Positions 53,105-64,000 of a stretch of DNA of 64,000 nucleotides are shown here, piece after piece (the stretch's first letter is position 1; the number at the start of each line of letters is the position of its first letter). Position numbers and translations under genes: made by a program. The notes beneath the pieces were generated by a model that had not been told where the DNA came from, ran no database searches, and worked only from the letters and a program-made list of their open reading frames with translations. This stretch comes from Hyphomicrobium sp. GTDB lineage: Bacteria; Pseudomonadota; Alphaproteobacteria; Rhizobiales; Hyphomicrobiaceae. The stretch lies in NCBI GenBank assembly GCA_019751875.1, contig JAIEMV010000010.1, positions 53,638 through 117,637 of the forward strand, given 5' to 3'.

Positions 53105-56100
53105 TTACGGACCTATAGCTAAGCTTGTTGCGCCCTGAGAGTTGAACACATCCAAATCAAACCGCTCGCGGACTACGACAAGCGCTCGTCCACGTAGATA
53201 CTCATCAGGACTTTCGTGCGCCGCAAGCCAGGAAGGATTTTCTTGCATGATTTTGCGACGAGATTCTTCGTCTTCGTTAAGGTCACTAACGCACACGTAG
53301 ATATGCCCCAATATGTTTGCAACACCTGTTGAAGGTTCGCCGGCGTATGCCTGCCGCAGTTTGGCCGTGGCTTTTATGTCGACAACTAGCATTCTATTGT
53401 CATGCTTTTCGTCCAGTGATGTCAGGGCGAATATCGGGATCTCCGCGCCTGATACCTCTATCGCTCCGGAAAAGCCTTTCAGCCCCCGGACTGAAGCGAT
53501 GGAAGACGCAGTTCTCGAAGCAGATCGGCTGCGATAGCCGCTATGGGATCTAAAAAAATGATGCTCCGTCGTGTAATCGAGAGTATGGATGATAATTAAA
53601 TCGCCGGCGATCTTCTCCTGCAATATCTTCGTCAGCTCTTCGTTCAGCTTTTCTGCCGAAACTTCAATTTTTCTTCCGGCTCTGTTCAAAAGTGCTCCAA
53701 AGATAGATCTGTCCTCAGCAAGTCCAAGTCCCTCACCATACGCCTCACCCCATCCTCCGAAAGAAGTGTGTTCCTGGCTGATAAAGGCGCTTTTGTCATC
53801 AACCTGATTGTACCCCAGTGTTCTGACGCCCTCTAACCTGCCGACGTCCACAATTGCGCTCTTCCATTCCAACAGGGGTCGCAGTCGGATGGTGCTTCTA
53901 TATCTCTCGATAAGCTCCTCCCCGAAGCGGCTCACTTTTTCCTGACACAAGGGTGCCGCCCGAGTTCTTTCGAGTTCCGCCCGCTGATCAGCGCGGCGCG
54001 CAGTTTCCAGAAGATCTCTCAGGGTTGGCACCTCGTGACGTTGTGCCTCTGTGAGTATTCGCGACCAATCGGCAGATCTTTCTGTTTCTATTTCATTCAG
54101 AATTTCGGCTATTATTCCCGTCGATACTGATGAAAGAGTACGACTGTGAGAAATTCTGACGTCAAGGGCGGGCTGCTCCCGAAGCGAGCTCAGAATACTC
54201 AAAGATTTAAAGATATAGCCCCGCGCCAGTTGAGCATGGCTTGAAATTGATCGCACTTTCCCGTCGGGTATCACATCCCACATCGTCCAACCCCAGTAAT
54301 CGTCTGGATCCGAGCCGCGTATATCCCTCCAGGCCGCAGATAGATCATCCATCTGGTTTGGTAATCCATTCGACAACGCCGCTAATATTTCAAGATCTCC
54401 CTCTTGGATTCCATTCTTTAGAAGCTCAGCTATTGCATGGCCAATCAAAGCGAGCAGCACCTGAGTTACTCCTCGTCGCAAATCGTCCGACGCCGCCTCG
54501 TACGCGACCTGACGGCTTAGCGCATTTTTTTGGTTGCCCAGCTCCTGTGGCTCAGTTGCCCTTGAAATCTGCAGCTTCAGCATCTCTGAATCTGCGCGAT
54601 AGGCCTCAGATTCTAGTGATCTTGAGATATCTCCGAGAGCATCAACGATCTCTCTTACGATCTTTAGATCGCGAGTAGCCGACGCTTGTTTTGCGACTAA
54701 CATGAGCGATCGAACTGCAAACAGCAGGAACTCGAGGAAATCGTTTATTTCGTCGGCGCCAGTTTCATTATTTTGTAACGCCGGCTCTATTTGAAATTTA
54801 GCAATCTCGTGGACGTATCGCCAGGATCTCTCCTTTAGCAGTTCTTCAACCGTACCCTTCTCTCTTTCTGCCACCCAATACAGATAATCAGCTAAAACTA
54901 TGAACTCCTGGAAACAATAATGATCCCGCACCTGAAAAGCTCTGGATGCGATTGCAAATGGCAAATAGCTAACCGAAGTGGCGATTGATCTGTTTTCGGT
55001 CTTCACAGCAACTGGCAATATTTCACGCCAGTCGTCTCTTAAGCTGTCGATCTCGACCCAGCCGCCTCCCCAACCATTCCGCTCTTTCCGCGCCATATCG
55101 GGTTTATAGGTAGCTCCCATATTTACCAGAGCCTCAAGGAAGATCTCTGCGATTTCGATAAATAACTTCGAGAACGTGTCCACCGCTCCAGGCGACTCCG
55201 CTCTTAAAGCTGCGATGAAGCCATCTTTCGAAGCTTGCAATTCCTGTGTGAATAGATCTGACGCCTTGTGGTTATTTGATAGCTTGAAAACAAAGGGGAT
55301 AGCGCCTGTCAGCTCCGCATTCATCTCATCTCGCTCGAGCAATTGAGCCGGCACTGCAAGCAATGCACGCTGTCGTGCACGGAACAGGGAACTGCTGGGC
55401 ACATCCTCTTCGAGGCGCTTTAAGAGATAGATTGGCCGCGGCTCATGATCTTCGGTGATTGCCTCTTTTGTCTCAAGAGCATCATCAGCTTTAGCCTTCA
55501 AATTGGCCTTCTTACCACTAAGGCTGAACCCGAACTGTGACTGTGCATAGAGGTCCAACCGGTCTAGGACTTTTTTAAGCTCTTCAATGTGGATGTCCTG
55601 AAGCCATCCTTCGTCGGGATGCTCGAGTATCTTGTAGTTGTTGATCTTTGAAATCCAAGACGCTGACGGAACATATCGGAGCTGTTGCAGTGGGCCGCCT
55701 GACTTCATGTAATTCAGCAGCAGTGCGTCCCCTACTCGCCGCCTCGCGGACAATAAAATCGTGTTGTAAAGGCGCTCTCTTAGCTGTTTCTTTCGATTAG
55801 ACTCCATCAACGCTGGGTCAAGCAGATTTCTTATTACACCCGAGAAAGCGAAAAGAGTAGTCAAGGCCAAAATGGCTGCCAAGAGCACACTCGGCAGTCC
55901 AGGTTTAGCCAAAATAAATCCAAGTGGAATCAACGTAATTGCAACGCCGAGAGGCCAAATCATACTGATCTTTAAGAGCAGCCGCTTTTGTTCAACTTCG
56001 TAGCCACCTCGGATCGTTTCAGCAACAAAGATTAGAAGCGCGACAATGATCACTGCCAAGCCTGTGAAGCCGGCAGCCACACTGCTGTCGAGATTAGTAT

Positions 56101-56596
56101 CTGCAATTTCTTTGTACCAATTCGCGATCGTGAAGGGGTCATACCCGTCGCCCATTCGGCTTTTCAGCGGCGCAAAGAATAGTGCAATCAACAAGAGAAC
56201 GATCGCGAGCGATTTGAGTGATGGTTCTTCGAAGCGCTTGCGGCGTTCCGTCTGGATCCAGTCGACGCACTTTTCGACTGCTCGATGACATCGCAATCGA
56301 GCGCTGCTGCGATATTTTAGGATCTTATAACGTGTTGGTATTGATTCCGTGGCGTTGGTGCGCGTGTTTGCTTTTATCTCGGCATCAATTTGCCCCGACA
56401 ACCAATGTGATTTCCAGCGCAAATGGTAAATGGACAATAACGCAATCACTAATGCGAGCGCGCCAGCAACTAGCAATAGATATATGATCTTTGCATTCGC
56501 AAAAGCCCAGCAGTAATCACCGCAAAGAACAGGTCCACCAATTAGGACCGCCACGCTATGCCTTATCTCTGAAGCTAACGTTCTGATCATCCCCAC
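53105..56596 (-). CDS. Large uncharacterised multi-TM N-terminal protein (1163 aa)
   Basis: Uninterrupted 3.5-kb ORF; N-terminal hydrophobic helices 'LALVIALLSIYHL', 'LAIVLLLIALFFAPL', 'GLAVIIVALLIFVAETI', 'LGVAITLIPLGFIL', 'LLAAILALTTLFAFSGVI'; long soluble C-term with no family I recognise. Confidence 0.8.
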   Translation of the reverse strand: MGMIRTLASEIRHSVAVLIGGPVLCGDYCWAFANAKIIYLLLVAGALALVIALLSIYHLRWKSHWLSGQIDAEIKANTRTNATESIPTRYKILKYRSSARLRCHRAVEKCVDWIQTERRKRFEEPSLKSLAIVLLLIALFFAPLKSRMGDGYDPFTIANWYKEIADTNLDSSVAAGFTGLAVIIVALLIFVAETIRGGYEVEQKRLLLKISMIWPLGVAITLIPLGFILAKPGLPSVLLAAILALTTLFAFSGVIRNLLDPALMESNRKKQLRERLYNTILLSARRRVGDALLLNYMKSGGPLQQLRYVPSASWISKINNYKILEHPDEGWLQDIHIEELKKVLDRLDLYAQSQFGFSLSGKKANLKAKADDALETKEAITEDHEPRPIYLLKRLEEDVPSSSLFRARQRALLAVPAQLLERDEMNAELTGAIPFVFKLSNNHKASDLFTQELQASKDGFIAALRAESPGAVDTFSKLFIEIAEIFLEALVNMGATYKPDMARKERNGWGGGWVEIDSLRDDWREILPVAVKTENRSIATSVSYLPFAIASRAFQVRDHYCFQEFIVLADYLYWVAEREKGTVEELLKERSWRYVHEIAKFQIEPALQNNETGADEINDFLEFLLFAVRSLMLVAKQASATRDLKIVREIVDALGDISRSLESEAYRADSEMLKLQISRATEPQELGNQKNALSRQVAYEAASDDLRRGVTQVLLALIGHAIAELLKNGIQEGDLEILAALSNGLPNQMDDLSAAWRDIRGSDPDDYWGWTMWDVIPDGKVRSISSHAQLARGYIFKSLSILSSLREQPALDVRISHSRTLSSVSTGIIAEILNEIETERSADWSRILTEAQRHEVPTLRDLLETARRADQRAELERTRAAPLCQEKVSRFGEELIERYRSTIRLRPLLEWKSAIVDVGRLEGVRTLGYNQVDDKSAFISQEHTSFGGWGEAYGEGLGLAEDRSIFGALLNRAGRKIEVSAEKLNEELTKILQEKIAGDLIIIHTLDYTTEHHFFRSHSGYRSRSASRTASSIASVRGLKGFSGAIEVSGAEIPIFALTSLDEKHDNRMLVVDIKATAKLRQAYAGEPSTGVANILGHIYVCVSDLNEDEESRRKIMQENPSWLAAHESPDEYLRGRALVVVRERFDLDVFNSQGATSLAIGP

Positions 56597-57343: not shown

Positions 57344-57761
57344 GATGACTCAGTCGAATGCGAAGAGAAGAGTGGCCGACGCACTACAGTGTCATGACAC
57401 TTTCTGAAAAGCCATAGCGCGGCGCCCTGCCCGTTTGCCTTCTCACCAACATTAAGCCTGCGCTCGAGTACGTTAGTGGCGAAGTATGATCATTGCGGTT
57501 GCGCCCGGTGCACCGCAGCGAGTCAAAACGCAATCTGTGCGCTAACGTTCTTCTGCCTCAGCTTGCGCTTGGCGATGGTCGCAGCGCGAGGCGGGGACAA
57601 CCATCGCCTGCCGCCAGTCGAGTGTGCGTCAACTACCTAGCGGCAGCGGGCTGCAACTATCTAACCTAGCCAAATGGTTCTACTCACATTCAGCTTTTCG
57701 GTAGCAGTTAGTATTGATAAATTATATTATCACTAGTTGTAACTCCAGTCAAGGTGCCTGT

Positions 57762-58886
57762 ATGCCTGCAAAAACTCCTCCAGATCCTGTGAAGCCTTCA
57801 GAGGCTCCGACCGGACTGACCGATACCGCCTTGGACTTTGCGCGAGCGGCGCTCGCGCCCAACACATTGCGAACCTATCGGGCTCAGTGGCACCTGTGGA
57901 CCACCTACGCACACGCAGCGAACGCGAGCGCGTTGCCGGCCGATCCTGAGACCGTCGCAAATTGGCTGGCGCACCGCGCCGCGAGGGTCGCACCATCAGT
58001 CGCGAGGGTCGCAGTTGCCTCCGACAGACGACATGACGGCGCGTCAGTCGCGACATTGCGCACAGCCCTCGCCGCTATTCGCTTTGCACATCTGGCTGCG
58101 GGGCAGTCTTTCGATGCCCGGCACCCCGCCCTCCAGCTCGTCCTGCGCGGCATTGCTCGCACCACGACCTCCGCCCCACGCCAGGCCGCCCCTCTCGGCC
58201 CGGACCTGCTTTTGAGCATCCTTGCGACCCTCGGCAATTCTCCGCGCGATGTTCGCGATGGTGCCATCCTGGCGCTTGGCTACTGCTTCGGCTGTCGGAG
58301 ATCCGAGTTAACGGGGCTCGATCTCGAGGAGATCGGTGAGGGCACGGGGGCTCTTCGTCTTGGGCCCACCCGACTGGAGATCCGCCTCTGGCATGCGAAG
58401 ACCCGACATGCTCGAGCAGACGCCGAGACTATGGTCGTGCCACGTGGTCCCAACCGAGCCGCCGTCGCGGCGATCGTGAGATGGATACGGCTTGCTGATG
58501 TTCAACGCGGCGAACCGGTACTGCGACGGGTTCTCAAGGCGGAGGGGATCTCACCCAATCGCCTCGACCCCCAGAGCGTTTCCCTCATCATCAAAGACCG
58601 GGTCCGCGAACATCTGTTGGCGCAGGGTGCCCCGGAGAGTGTCGCAGCGAAGGTCGCGCGTGGATATTCGGGGCACAGCCTCCGAGTTGGGTTGGCTGTC
58701 GCGGCCGCGGAGGCCGGCGCGAGTGTGCTTGCGATCCAATCCGCACTTGGCCACAGATCGCCCGCGATGGCTGCGCGATATGCCAGCGCCGCCGAAAAGT
58801 CTCGCATGAGCCCGCACTTCCTGCCTGGTGTATCGCTGGGGCGAAAACGCACTAAGGGGCAGATCGGGAAGGGGTCGGGGCAATGA
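57762..58886 (+). CDS. Tyrosine-type site-specific integrase/recombinase
   Basis: 'AILALGYCFGCRRSELTGLDLEEI' and C-terminal 'GYSGHSLRVGLAVAAAEAGASVLAIQSALGHRSPAMAARYASAAEKSR' (HxxR...GH...Y). Confidence 0.95.
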   Translation: MPAKTPPDPVKPSEAPTGLTDTALDFARAALAPNTLRTYRAQWHLWTTYAHAANASALPADPETVANWLAHRAARVAPSVARVAVASDRRHDGASVATLRTALAAIRFAHLAAGQSFDARHPALQLVLRGIARTTTSAPRQAAPLGPDLLLSILATLGNSPRDVRDGAILALGYCFGCRRSELTGLDLEEIGEGTGALRLGPTRLEIRLWHAKTRHARADAETMVVPRGPNRAAVAAIVRWIRLADVQRGEPVLRRVLKAEGISPNRLDPQSVSLIIKDRVREHLLAQGAPESVAAKVARGYSGHSLRVGLAVAAAEAGASVLAIQSALGHRSPAMAARYASAAEKSRMSPHFLPGVSLGRKRTKGQIGKGSGQ

Positions 58887-59248
58887 AGGTTCTCAGCGTT
58901 CGCCAGCCCTGGGCATGGGCCATTATTGCCGGTCACAAGACAATCGAGAACCGGAGGTGGTCGACGACCTACCGAGGGCCTCTTTTGATCCACGCTGGAC
59001 AAAAGATGCGGATCCAAGACTACAGGCGATTGCTCGACTACGGGGACGAAGACGGCTTTCAGGTTCCCGAGCGGGAAGATCTGCACCTCGGCGGGATTAT
59101 CGGCAAGGCTGTGCTGGTCGACATTGTGACCAAAGCGAAAGGAAACCCTTGGTTCGAAGGACCGTACGGCTGGTGTCTCGTCGAGCCTCGCAAGCTGCCG
59201 TTTCGGCCCTTGCTCGGAAAGTTGCGGTTGTTCGAGGAAGCTGAGTGA
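58883..59248 (+). CDS. ASCH-domain protein
   Basis: 'MKVLSVRQPWAWAIIAGHKTIENRRWSTTYRGPLLIHAGQK...GGIIGKAVLVDIV...WFEGPYGWCLVEPRKLPFRPLLGKLRLFE'; ATGA overlap with the integrase stop. Confidence 0.92.
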   Translation: MKVLSVRQPWAWAIIAGHKTIENRRWSTTYRGPLLIHAGQKMRIQDYRRLLDYGDEDGFQVPEREDLHLGGIIGKAVLVDIVTKAKGNPWFEGPYGWCLVEPRKLPFRPLLGKLRLFEEAE

Positions 59249-59360
59249 GCCACGGCATCGTTCGCTTTTCTATAGCGGTCGCCTGACAATCCGAATTTTT
59301 GGCGAGGCGAAGTGCGCGGCTGGTGGTCGCTCTCCATATGTAGGGCCGCAGGGCCTCTCC

Positions 59361-59480
59361 CCTGTAAGGTCACTGGCTCCCCTGTAGGGTCACTGGCTCC
59401 GCTGTAAGGTCACTGGCTCCCCTGTAAGGTCGCTGGGTCCCCTGTAAGGTCACTGGCTCCCCTGTGAGGTCGCTGGGCAG
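59361..59480. repeat. Six tandem 20-bp direct repeats (iteron-like), plus a degenerate seventh to about 59500
   Basis: cctgtaaggtcactggctcc at 59361, 59381, 59401, 59421, 59441 and 59461 with 1-5 substitutions, exact 20-bp period. Confidence 0.95.
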
Positions 59481-59516: not shown

Positions 59517-60797
59517 CTAAGCCTCACAGACTGTCGCGAACTCTACTGAACCTGCTAACGGATGCTCGCCCCGCCTGAGAACTTCCAGTTTTCGCTGGAG
59601 CTGTTCCTCCATGATCTCGGAAACGCGCGCACTGCAATCTTGCCGGACGATGACGCTGTCGTGGATCGGCAGAGCAACTATCCCGCAATCGTGGCAACGG
59701 TCCAGCACGTCAAGGAGTAGTTCAGAATCCAAGAACTGCAGCCTCCGGCCGACGCCGCTGTAGAAGTACGCACTGATCGGTCCATGTCTCAGCTCAAGCG
59801 CACGTAACAGGCGCCGTGCAGTGTACTCGTCGAAGTCTGGATATTTATCTGGATCAGCGATGTTGAAGACCAGCGCTTTCGCGGCTTTCGGACGTGAATT
59901 GGCATTGATCATAATTTGCCACGCCATTTTGACGAGGCTCCGATCCCAACCCTCCATTCTATAGCACCTCCCGGGAGATACCCCGCCACAACACGCATAA
60001 AGAAGTTGGGCGTGTAATTCCGCATAGTCGAGCTCGACGGTCGGACTTTCATCAATAGTCAATTGTGCTCGTCGGTATTTCGGCAGGTGCTGCCAGAACG
60101 CTCCATACAACCTGCCGCCATGCTGCCAGTCCTCATTGAAGACCCTGTAAGTGGCTCTATTTCCCGGATTGACGATCTGGCCGTCTAGTTTCAAACAGGG
60201 TTTCGACAAATCGAGAGCGGCATCCGTCGATCCAAGTACCGCGTTACGGAAAATTTCATTGTGCCGTCGCATGCGGCACCGCATGGCGTTAGTGTGATCT
60301 GTGTCGTCGTAGTCTATCAGGTGCTTTGCCTTGTTCTTTAACTGGATCGTCTCGTGCTTCTCACTTGCTGTGACTGATGACCAATTCAACGGCGCGCTTA
60401 AGAGCCTGTCCGTCGCTCTGATGCGGCTCTGCCAACCGAACGATGAACGTGAAGCACGTTCTTCTTCGATCATTCCTTTGCTTACAAGCAGGTCAACCAA
60501 CGCAAGAATTCGACGATAGGTGTATTGGGGTCCGAGGTAGCGGCGCTTGTCTGAGTAGAATTGCTTGTTGCGCGAGTAGCTGACCCATACGCCTACACTG
60601 GAAGCAGCAAAAAGACAGGCAATCATGCCTTGCAGCGCTCGACTATTCGGCCCCCCGAACAGACCCAGCGTTTGCAGGTCGTTCTTCGTCACTCCGGACC
60701 ATTTCAGAGACAGAGGCATATCGCTGCCATTGGCTCCCGGATTGAACGCATCATTGCTGTCGCCGAAGTACATTGCTTCGCCGTCCAATCTGTTCAT
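59517..60797 (-). CDS. Uncharacterised mobile-element protein with motifs resembling single-subunit (PolA/T7 RNAP-like) polymerases
   Basis: Motif A-like 'VELDYAELHAQLLYACCG', motif B-like 'RSLVKMAWQIMINANS', motif C-like 'ALPIHDSVIVRQD', in the correct order. Confidence 0.6.
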   Translation of the reverse strand: MNRLDGEAMYFGDSNDAFNPGANGSDMPLSLKWSGVTKNDLQTLGLFGGPNSRALQGMIACLFAASSVGVWVSYSRNKQFYSDKRRYLGPQYTYRRILALVDLLVSKGMIEEERASRSSFGWQSRIRATDRLLSAPLNWSSVTASEKHETIQLKNKAKHLIDYDDTDHTNAMRCRMRRHNEIFRNAVLGSTDAALDLSKPCLKLDGQIVNPGNRATYRVFNEDWQHGGRLYGAFWQHLPKYRRAQLTIDESPTVELDYAELHAQLLYACCGGVSPGRCYRMEGWDRSLVKMAWQIMINANSRPKAAKALVFNIADPDKYPDFDEYTARRLLRALELRHGPISAYFYSGVGRRLQFLDSELLLDVLDRCHDCGIVALPIHDSVIVRQDCSARVSEIMEEQLQRKLEVLRRGEHPLAGSVEFATVCEA

Positions 60798-60855: not shown

Positions 60856-61068
60856 TTATTCGTCGGTTCTAGTTGCCATCCACTCAGCAACTTCAGTCCA
60901 ACGCCACACCCGTCTCCGCAAGCCAATCCGAATCGGACGCGGAAAAAGGCCATCTCTAATCCACTCGTAGATTGCAGATTTCGATGCAGGGATAATTTTG
61001 CGGAGGTCCGCAAGCGTCAGTAGTCGCTCTTCTGGGAAGTTATGGTCCCAGTGACCGCAGTTAGGCAT
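60856..61068 (-). CDS. AlpA-family HTH regulator/excisionase-like protein
   Basis: 'LLTLADLRKIIPASKSAIYEWIRDGLFPRPIRIGLRRRVWRWTEVAEWMATR'. Confidence 0.92.
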   Translation of the reverse strand: MPNCGHWDHNFPEERLLTLADLRKIIPASKSAIYEWIRDGLFPRPIRIGLRRRVWRWTEVAEWMATRTDE

Positions 61069-61158: not shown

Positions 61159-61582
61159 ACCGTCAAGGTCCGATGGATGATTTAAGATCGCAAACCAGCT
61201 ACTATTCGTCGCCTTCGACACCAGGTTGAAGGCTTCACTGCTTTACGTGATGAATAAGTGTCAGACGAATCGCCGAAGTGCAAGTTTGTTCTTTATGGAC
61301 CACCGTCATTCATTCTCTCGAACAATGATTAGTTCTCTTAGCGTCCTCGACCATCGATCTCGGGATTACGTGTCGTCCCAGAAGCGGACATCGGGAAGTG
61401 TCGCCTGCAACAGCGCCGGTGATGTCAGTTCTCAGAGGCTTAGCGGACACGTCAGTTGGCTCGCAGAAGGCAGCAAGTGACCTTAAGCAGACTATTTCCT
61501 ATTACCGCACAGGGAGCCTAGTCTCGACTAGGCACCGAAGCTGCAGAAAGGCCTATTAGCGCCGCCAAATGAGATCCCAGCG

Positions 61583-62014: not shown

Positions 62015-64000
62015 CTAAAAACCTACGTTGCCAACTGGTAGAGACAGTTGAGCAGAGAATCCCAGGTCGCGTTCTCTTCCCGAGGTAATCCCGTCGATCG
62101 TTCCTTCGAGGGTGAGTCGGACATCGTTTGCGATGTCGAGCGTGAACCCGCTTTGGAAGCGAGCACGCACATCGCCGTCGTCGTCGCGCGGACCACCACT
62201 GTCTATTTCAAAAAGTTCTGCCCTTTTGAAATCCCAAATGCCTTGGATGCTAAAAAATGGCTGCAACAACACATCGCCGGGGAAGGCGAATGTTGTGCGG
62301 AACTTGGGCCCAAATGTCATTCGGCCAAGGCTTGCTGTCTGTCGCTCGATGAGCAATCCAAAACTGTCACGGTAAGCCCTTTGAGTCTCTTGAAAGAGAA
62401 TAGCACCGGCATGTGGTTGAATGTCCCAGCCGCCTGCTTTGAAATCACCGGTCAATCTCAGCCGGGCAAGGAATCTTTCAGTCGAAAAAGTGTCACTGTA
62501 AGTATCGAACGGTAATATGTCGTTGGCCGATGTGCCCCATGCGACGCGTCCATCGAGCAGTATGTTAGCTCCGATCCGCGCAACCAGGTATGGTCCGGCG
62601 AGCCAGCCCGATCCCGATATGGAGAAATCGGCATCGCAATCGCTTGCCTCTGCAAAATCGTACTGCAGGAGGAATCCTGCTATGACGTCTTGCGAGACAG
62701 CGTAGTCGAGACCAACATAACCGAGCGCAAGACTGCCGTCCGTGTCTGGCCCGTCCAGCGTCGTCCACTTGCCCTCTGTCCACAGGCCCCACTGGCCTAG
62801 CGTCAGGCCAACGCGATGCAGTTCGACATTTGAGGACCCTTGTTCCTCCATACCGTTTCCGGAGAGCGGGATGAGGCGAGTGCGTGCGCTTCGATCAATC
62901 AATCTGCCGACAAGTTCAGGCTCAGAGGCCGTTATTTGATCTGCGCGCCGAGTTAGAAAGTTAGAAATGATACCTTTCGTTCGGCTTTGAACGAATAATG
63001 ATGTCCGTCCGCTTGTGAACGTGCAGATAATGCTCTCGCCCGCTTCAAGAGTTATATTCGCCTGGCGTTGCGACAGCGAAGTCACAGAATTAGATAGTCC
63101 TGACTCCGTACACGCCAGGGACGTCAATTCCCATCCACTATTTTCGTTTTCCAGAATCGTATGCGAACCGGGCGACATATACAAAGTGGCAGATGCTGTA
63201 TTGCCCGCCGTGGTCAGGGTCAGACCTGACAGTATCGGAGAGGGCGACGAATACTCGAATGTTTCCTGTGCTCCATCTGGAGAATCGATGACCTTCACGA
63301 TTGTGACCGCTCCAGACACTGCGAGCCCGATGATGGCCGTTGGCGATGCGGCATTACCATTGCCACTTGCATCGCTCGCCGAGTTGGCAGGCAACATTAC
63401 CGAAATATCACCCCCACCATCGGGTACAATTGAAAGCACATAGATAGAACTGCCTCCACCAAGCGCCGATGCAGTTCCGTTGATTACTGTGAAATCCGCA
63501 GCGATCAATCCATTGACTGGCACGCTGAACGACACTGTGATGACAAACGGCTCCAGGGTAGTGATGTTGGCCGGTGCGGTGAGATTGACCGTCGGCGCGC
63601 CGTTGTTGAGATCATAGGCTTCGTCGACCGGCGGCTCCGTAGCCGGGAGCGGATTGTTGGCTGTGTCAGTGATGGTGGCGGCAGCGGCCAGATTGAGACC
63701 GACCGCGCCGTTGAACGTTGCCAGGTCTCCGCCGGCAACGGTGATATCGTACTGGGTGGCGCTGACGGCGGAGACGGCTGTGATGCCGGCCGACGTGGTG
63801 CCGTCAACCGCGAAGTCGGCAGTATCGACGCCAAGCACGTCCTCATCGAACGTGGCGCGGAAGACCAGCGTGTCGGCGTTGGTCACGGCCCCGGCCGGTG
63901 ATTGCCGGGTGAACGACGCCAAGGTCGGCGCGCCGTTGTTGAGATCATAGGCTTCGTCGACCGGCGGCTCCGTAGCCGGGAGCGGATTGTTGGCTGTGTC
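62015..64000 (-). CDS. Autotransporter-type protein with Ig-like repeats and C-terminal beta-barrel (5' end beyond window)
   Basis: Repeated 'ADTLVFRATFDEDVLGVDTADFAVDGTTSAGITAV..' Ig-like module; C-terminal barrel 'LGYVGLDYAVSQDVIAGFLLQYDFAEA...GWLAGPYLVARIGANILLDGRVAWGTS' ending 'LSLPVGNVGF'. Frame continues past the ORF-track Met at 63922 to the window end. Confidence 0.88.
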   Translation of the reverse strand, partial: DTANNPLPATEPPVDEAYDLNNGAPTLASFTRQSPAGAVTNADTLVFRATFDEDVLGVDTADFAVDGTTSAGITAVSAVSATQYDITVAGGDLATFNGAVGLNLAAAATITDTANNPLPATEPPVDEAYDLNNGAPTVNLTAPANITTLEPFVITVSFSVPVNGLIAADFTVINGTASALGGGSSIYVLSIVPDGGGDISVMLPANSASDASGNGNAASPTAIIGLAVSGAVTIVKVIDSPDGAQETFEYSSPSPILSGLTLTTAGNTASATLYMSPGSHTILENENSGWELTSLACTESGLSNSVTSLSQRQANITLEAGESIICTFTSGRTSLFVQSRTKGIISNFLTRRADQITASEPELVGRLIDRSARTRLIPLSGNGMEEQGSSNVELHRVGLTLGQWGLWTEGKWTTLDGPDTDGSLALGYVGLDYAVSQDVIAGFLLQYDFAEASDCDADFSISGSGWLAGPYLVARIGANILLDGRVAWGTSANDILPFDTYSDTFSTERFLARLRLTGDFKAGGWDIQPHAGAILFQETQRAYRDSFGLLIERQTASLGRMTFGPKFRTTFAFPGDVLLQPFFSIQGIWDFKRAELFEIDSGGPRDDDGDVRARFQSGFTLDIANDVRLTLEGTIDGITSGRERDLGFSAQLSLPVGNVGF
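63591..64000. repeat. 333-bp (111-codon) in-frame repeat within the autotransporter gene; copies at 63591 and 63924
   Basis: gtcggcgcgccgttgttgagatcataggcttcgtcgaccggcggctccgtagccgggagcggattgttggctgtgtc occurs at both positions without visible mismatch. Confidence 0.95.

Follow-up and report, generated by a model that had tools for sequence, protein, structure and literature searches.

The window analysed here is a 64,000-nucleotide stretch of the Hyphomicrobium sp. contig JAIEMV010000010.1 (assembly GCA_019751875.1) whose end coincides with the end of the contig. On its reverse strand it carries a gene for a small polymerase-like protein, with an AlpA/HTH_17 gene upstream and, on the 3' side, a repeat array, an ASCH-domain gene and a tyrosine integrase gene (Table 1). 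The ASCH-domain gene and the stop codon of the integrase overlap, which would suit co-transcription of the two genes. The array begins 41 bp past the polymerase stop codon; together with the motif ACATATGGAG, just beyond it, it makes up a composite cis site on the 3' side of the polymerase gene. Two long ORFs were noted on the same strand as the polymerase gene. The first (53105–56596, 1163 aa) is apparently membrane-anchored and has a G+C content of 0.49, against about 0.61; the second (62015–64000) encodes repeated Ig-like segments with an autotransporter-like C-terminus and is cut by the contig end. No element ends and no excision were found, and the polymerase region is absent from the genomes of the same genus that were examined; the island is not conserved in the genus, and no empty site could be defined from these genomes.

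Table 1. Positions in the window of the polymerase gene, its predicted domains and motifs, and the neighbouring features.
Feature	Position	Strand	Basis or remark
Polymerase CDS P0001	59517..60797	-	426 aa, ATG start, intact ORF
Palm/fingers catalytic region, residues 148–420	59538..60356	-	VIA-align of the model
Probable N-terminal winged-helix domain, about residues 38–128	60414..60686	-	separate AF2 model, Foldseek and VIA
GGRLY motif, residues 227–231	60105..60119	-	Arg229 in 144/145; template-side Arg position by analogy
Motif A catalytic Asp257	60027..60029	-	Asp in 145/145; pairs with motif A of T7 DNA polymerase
Motif B Arg286-x3-Lys290 (O-helix)	59928..59942	-	142/145 and 144/145; aligned with TRDNAK of T7 DNA polymerase
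Motif C His379-Asp380-Ser381	59655..59663	-	His and Asp in 143/143; aligned with HDE of T7 DNA polymerase and HDSF of T7 RNA polymerase
Iteron-like array, 6 x 20 bp	59357..59476	-	gene-sense unit CCAGTGACCTTACAGGGGAG; 90% matches
Conserved cis motif ACATATGGAG	59332..59341	-	just past the array
Lone array core AGTGACCTTA	61476..61485	+	facing the other way, on the upstream side of the HTH gene
AlpA/HTH_17 regulator- or excisionase-like gene	60856..61068	-	upstream of the polymerase; Phage_AlpA E = 3.9e-11
Tyrosine integrase	57714..58886	+	convergent with the polymerase; Phage_integrase E = 1.4e-11; length from the first listed start
ASCH-domain gene	58883..59248	+	between integrase and array; ASCH E = 2.7e-6

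Family membership and distribution

By its profile match (E = 4.5e-45), the 426-aa ORF is a member of phrog_4756, a widespread and uncharacterised family that PHROG annotates as 'unknown function'. Searches of the Pfam, NCBIfam, PADLOC and PDB sequences returned no credible match to the protein, the canonical DNA polymerase I family (PF00476) was not matched in Pfam up to E = 10, and no known exonuclease domain was detected. An MftB match (E = 0.0017, below its cut-off) and a BgaA-like match were judged to be chance. Viral contigs queried with the single protein gave no match; family members were found at 39 viral-contig loci, in 33 large phages of Vibrio, Aeromonas and Klebsiella, and on three plasmids. 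Relatives occur in 17 of the 199 genomes of the same order and in 25 of the 398 genomes of the phylum, and 80 of the 195 matching stretches from bacterial genome contigs were kept. At one locus (L138, 7226–8563, + strand) an intact family member has beside it a second one that lacks the His-Asp motif and is a possible inactive paralogue.

The representative of divPolA2, AUR84708 (MG592441.1), matched the polymerase by tblastn (E = 5e-9, identity confirmed) and the family profile with E = 4.7e-41. The phage branch of the family is divPolA2, described in 2024 (PMC11348598), and the family also resembles the TV-Pols (PMC2579912), so the family that the sequence-only reading put forward as a candidate new one is not new. 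What is new are the chromosomal, often integrase-linked members, the 3' cis site, the probable winged helix, and the fact that the two residues with which E. coli Pol I discriminates against ribose are both lost.

Predicted fold and catalytic residues

AlphaFold2 modelled the full-length protein with a pLDDT of 90.6 and a pTM of 0.88 from a 107-sequence alignment. The sequence-only reading had staked its proposal of a single-subunit polymerase-like protein of 426 aa, devoid of an exonuclease domain, on a palm/fingers arrangement, and both fold and motifs support that proposal: every top PDB match of the model is either a family A DNA polymerase or a single-subunit RNA polymerase. In the Foldseek search against the PDB, all 50 of the 50 matches listed were family A DNA polymerases or T7 RNA polymerase, the best being Taq (E = 1.9e-4), with TM-scores that are low (about 0.3–0.4) because the PDB targets are far larger than the model. 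VIA-align superposed the catalytic region on yeast mitochondrial RNA polymerase (Z 13.3, 253 residues aligned, 4.0 A), T7 RNA polymerase (Z 12.2, 255 residues, 3.6 A) and Bst Pol I (Z 12.1, 236 residues, 3.8 A); as Z differences of about 1 count as ties, the RNA and DNA polymerase matches are tied. Asp257 lies at the end of the strand formed by residues 251–257, and His379-Asp380 in the turn between strands 376–378 and 381–385, which is the placement expected of motifs A and C.

Profile comparison with hhalign uses no structure and is thus independent of the AlphaFold model. Against a small set of family A polymerases (E = 3.6e-4 for one comparison), the family profile came into register with motifs A, B and C of T7 DNA polymerase: Asp257 lies opposite the motif-A Asp, G-D-x-Y opposite GDIH, Arg286/Lys290 opposite TRDNAK and His379-Asp380 opposite HDE. 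Asp257 and Asp380, which had been expected to meet in a palm, are thereby set on the two catalytic Asp residues of T7 DNA polymerase. Against RNA polymerases motif C was aligned (E = 1.6e-5 and 4.5e-6), and over the whole palm the alignment fits DNA polymerase better, with RNA polymerase fitting at motif C only. We regard the fold and ancestry of the ORF as belonging, almost certainly, to the DNA polymerase I/single-subunit RNA polymerase superfamily.

Conservation was counted over 145 aligned family members, with the motif C His and Asp taken from 143 filled rows. The motif strings first picked out by eye, VELDYAELHAQLLYACCG (Asp257), RSLVKMAWQIMINANS (Arg286, Lys290) and ALPIHDSVIVRQD (His379-Asp380-Ser381), are present and conserved over these members, and the three motifs rank among the family's most conserved residues, which excludes chance resemblance. 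Ser381 is kept in 119 rows, Tyr279 in 144 of the 145 and Arg243 in all 145. The likeness to motif A of DNA polymerase I held for the invariant Asp257 but not for its context, which is D-Y-x-x-L-H, without the Glu of DNA polymerase I. Position 277 is Asp in 135 of the 145 relatives and Arg in the Hyphomicrobium copy. The family is probably catalytic, and the Hyphomicrobium copy itself is also likely, though less surely, to be so.

Sugar-selection residues

CCPol keeps both of the residues by which Pol I discriminates against ribonucleotides (E710 and F762 in Pol I; E174 and F225 in CCPol; PMC7581432). At the equivalent positions the Hyphomicrobium protein has His262 and Gln294, and it thus lacks both the motif A Glu and the motif B Phe of DNA polymerase I; over the 145 rows, position 262 is His in 99, Phe in 13 and Asn in 12, and position 294 is Asn in 80 and Leu in 35. 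T7 RNA polymerase has Tyr639 eight residues past the Lys of motif B, where the Hyphomicrobium protein has Asn298 (family: Asn in 104 of 145, Phe in 19), so that the Tyr639 equivalent of the single-subunit RNA polymerases is absent as well. Neither known pattern of sugar selection, that of Pol I or that of T7 RNA polymerase, applies to this protein, and for a family without the Pol I residues and without Tyr639, RNA, DNA or both are conceivable as the product.

The N-terminal domain

Modelled alone from 78 sequences, the N-terminal domain reached a pLDDT of 91.8. The Foldseek matches listed for it were mostly winged-helix proteins (PadR, MarR, Fur), the best being PadR with E = 0.015; the best VIA-align match was MepR (Z 7.5, 83 residues, 2.8 A), with a Z in the range that the tool calls common, and the MarR sequence match was weak (E = 0.66). 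Although each match is weak on its own, the modelled domain is probably a winged helix.

Gene neighbourhoods

Of 113 related loci, 42 have a tyrosine-integrase cluster nearby and 17 a serine-resolvase cluster, and the genes that adjoin the polymerase encode integrase, HTH_17 and resolvase domains together with assorted restriction-modification proteins. NaeI, EcoRII, Mrr, type III and DNA methylase genes adjoin it in many genomes, at L144, L164, L121 and L094 among others, which points to insertion hot spots or cargo in common. No helicase family is prominent among the neighbour families listed, and the D5 helicase is absent from them. A regular family A polymerase is encoded separately in the phages that have the gene, so the family member is not their main replicase; the Hyphomicrobium genome likewise encodes Pol I.

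The repeat array and the conserved cis motif

The iteron-like array beside the gene, suspected from the first inspection, was recovered as six 20-bp units. Within its own genome the unit pattern occurs at this site only. The array core, AGTGACCTTA, occurs five times in the window, array copies included, against 0.02 expected; a further copy at 53278 is held within the 1163-aa ORF. Strong tandem arrays (z > 4) were found in 12 of the 142 3' flanks, compared with 6 in the 5' flanks.

The 8-mer ACATATGG, the core of ACATATGGAG, is present in 15 of 142 3' flanks (up to 500 bp), against 1.0 expected from shuffles, and in 5' flanks at 2 of 141 loci; its copies mostly share the orientation of the polymerase gene. 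A position-weight scan placed 21 sites downstream and 1 upstream above the shuffle threshold, a count that is partly circular because the training sites were included in the scan. The motif is linked to a polymerase clade: 15 of the 16 loci that carry it fall within one supported clade of 43 polymerases (FastTree, SH-like 96), and the one left over, the locus in the window itself, has its polymerase on a long branch of unresolved place in the tree. Overall the motif is present at about a tenth of the loci, usually as a single copy next to the polymerase gene, and most phage-clade members are without it. A 16-mer of the motif matched 11 viral contigs, three of them with a family member adjoining; one of these three (L207) did not contribute to the definition of the motif, and on it the motif follows the 3' end of the gene at about 90 bp, with matching orientation. 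A 15-mer searched over 385 genomes of the class gave two matches, neither with a polymerase inside the surrounding 3 kb or so. At one locus (L053, 6000–6210) two inverted copies of TTCCACATATGGAG, separated by about 200 bp, follow the polymerase on its 3' side, and at several loci GGGTTA precedes the motif.

An integrase is near 4 of 15 motif loci compared with 38 of 98 others, so that motif loci are not integrase-enriched. An attachment site was rejected as the nature of the motif, which is usually single-copy and not integrase-linked, as was the start codon of a downstream gene, since the bases past ATGGAG vary. No RNA was found with Rfam, and promoter and terminator scans remained at chance level.

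Comparison with known systems

The closest relative is divPolA2 of tailed phages, for which Yutin et al. took AUR84708 as their model, reported a variable gene neighbourhood and an N-terminal domain of no detectable similarity, and proposed repair or RNA polymerase functions (PMC11348598). The two are homologous and share a palm predicted here to be active, the lack of an exonuclease, an extra N-terminal domain and coexistence with a regular DNA polymerase. Unlike divPolA2, the Hyphomicrobium copy is chromosomal and bacterial, belongs to an integrase-linked element, and is followed on its 3' side by the array and the conserved cis motif; its N-terminal domain resembles a winged helix.

The TV-Pols of transposons and viruses, which occur in integrase/resolvase neighbourhoods and partly in the same host groups (Iyer, Abhiman and Aravind 2008, PMC2579912), likewise have a minimal family A-like core of 400–600 aa, alphaproteobacterial hosts, and integrase or resolvase and restriction-modification neighbours. 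Their two catalytic Asp residues, hairpin Arg and R-x3-K correspond to Asp257, Asp380, Arg229, Arg286 and Lys290; their fingers Asp before R-x3-K may correspond to position 277, an Asp in most phrog_4756 members and an Arg in the Hyphomicrobium copy. The TV-Pol thumb consists of two antiparallel helices, whereas the present model appears to have one long thumb-like helix (residues 167–185) before the hairpin and no clear helical pair; the D5 helicase, a partner of TV-Pols, was not prominent among the neighbour families listed here. Some listed TV-Pols may be the phrog_4756 family itself; the family profile matched nothing in Microcystis phage Ma-LMM01, from which a TV-Pol has been reported.

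CCPol-MP of SCCmec, in which a family A core primes DNA with a preference for an origin repeat (Bebel et al. 2020, PMC7581432), is similarly a mobile-element system: its polymerase is small, of family A and free of an exonuclease, and origin repeats lie nearby. It differs in retaining the two sugar-discriminating residues and in its MP partner, of which no counterpart was identified here. ColE2 Rep is an origin-specific primase of a different fold (PMC4538821). The T7 and mitochondrial single-subunit RNA polymerases share the palm fold and signatures of the GR-x-Y, D-x-Y and HDS type, but the present protein is half as long and has another N-terminal domain and Asn298 in place of Tyr639.

A proposed role in priming, and its alternatives

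A small polymerase with a probable DNA-binding module, encoded beside an array and a conserved site, would probably start the copying of its element, and the array, the cis site, the integrase and the probable winged helix together form a context that favours a priming or initiator role. In the scheme that we propose, the N-terminal winged helix would read the element's own DNA 3' of the gene, at the 20-bp array and/or ACATATGGAG, and this binding would put the palm active site at the array/ACATATGGAG. The two-metal centre of Asp257 and Asp380 would then begin a short strand, with Arg286/Lys290 and Tyr279 gripping the incoming triphosphate, and the host replicase would extend that strand after excision of the element, the 3' site in effect serving as an origin. 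The precedents of CCPol-MP and ColE2 Rep count for an initiator, while Arg277, the weak winged-helix matches, the minority of loci with arrays, the cis motif at about a tenth of loci and the want of a prominent helicase count against one. Taken as a whole, the explanation of a minimal superfamily polymerase, homologous to divPolA2 and carried on an integrase-bearing element, that primes at its 3' site stands in our judgement about evenly balanced, and the sequence-specific initiator or primer role by itself falls a little short of an even call. More tentatively still, and with some doubt, a single protein of about 430 residues may be both initiator and primase, starting de novo at its own iteron/ACATATGGAG site as the superfamily's counterpart of ColE2 Rep, in chromosomal elements and phages.

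If the protein were instead a small RNA polymerase related to those of T7 and mitochondria, transcribing element or phage genes, the winged helix would be a promoter-binding module and ACATATGGAG the promoter. Yutin et al. also considered such a function for divPolA2 (PMC11348598), and it would agree with the top VIA-align Z-scores, albeit tied with those of DNA polymerases, with HDSF and D-x-Y spelled as in T7 RNA polymerase, with the resemblance of GR[FL]Y to GRVY, and with the absence of the ribose-discriminating Glu of Pol I. We nevertheless consider it unlikely, as the position of Tyr639 is mostly Asn in the family, the whole-palm profile alignment favours DNA polymerase, and the motif occurs in a single copy at the polymerase gene, with none repeated before other genes.

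A polymerase for DNA repair, translesion synthesis or gap filling that phages and elements retain, without an initiation role and beside an array and cis motif that serve another protein or partition, is in our view improbable to much the same degree. Such a polymerase would suit phages that already own a main DNA polymerase, the gene neighbourhood that varies among the 113 related loci as it does for divPolA2 (PMC11348598), and the lack of a prominent helicase among the families listed nearby; it leaves aside that the cis motif tracks the polymerase clade and that the N-terminal domain is of a DNA-binding type, a kind without a counterpart in repair polymerases. Very unlikely is a decaying or re-purposed Hyphomicrobium copy, non-catalytic and acting as a DNA-binding regulator only, for despite Arg277 and the long, unresolved branch in the tree, the ORF is intact and Asp257, Tyr279, Arg286, Lys290, His379 and Asp380 are retained.

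Should the priming role hold true, the Pol I/T7 RNA polymerase superfamily would also provide mobile elements with compact, sequence-addressed primases. The conserved cis site is a concrete candidate substrate for divPolA2, which was published without one, and helps to choose between the repair and RNA polymerase roles proposed for that group.
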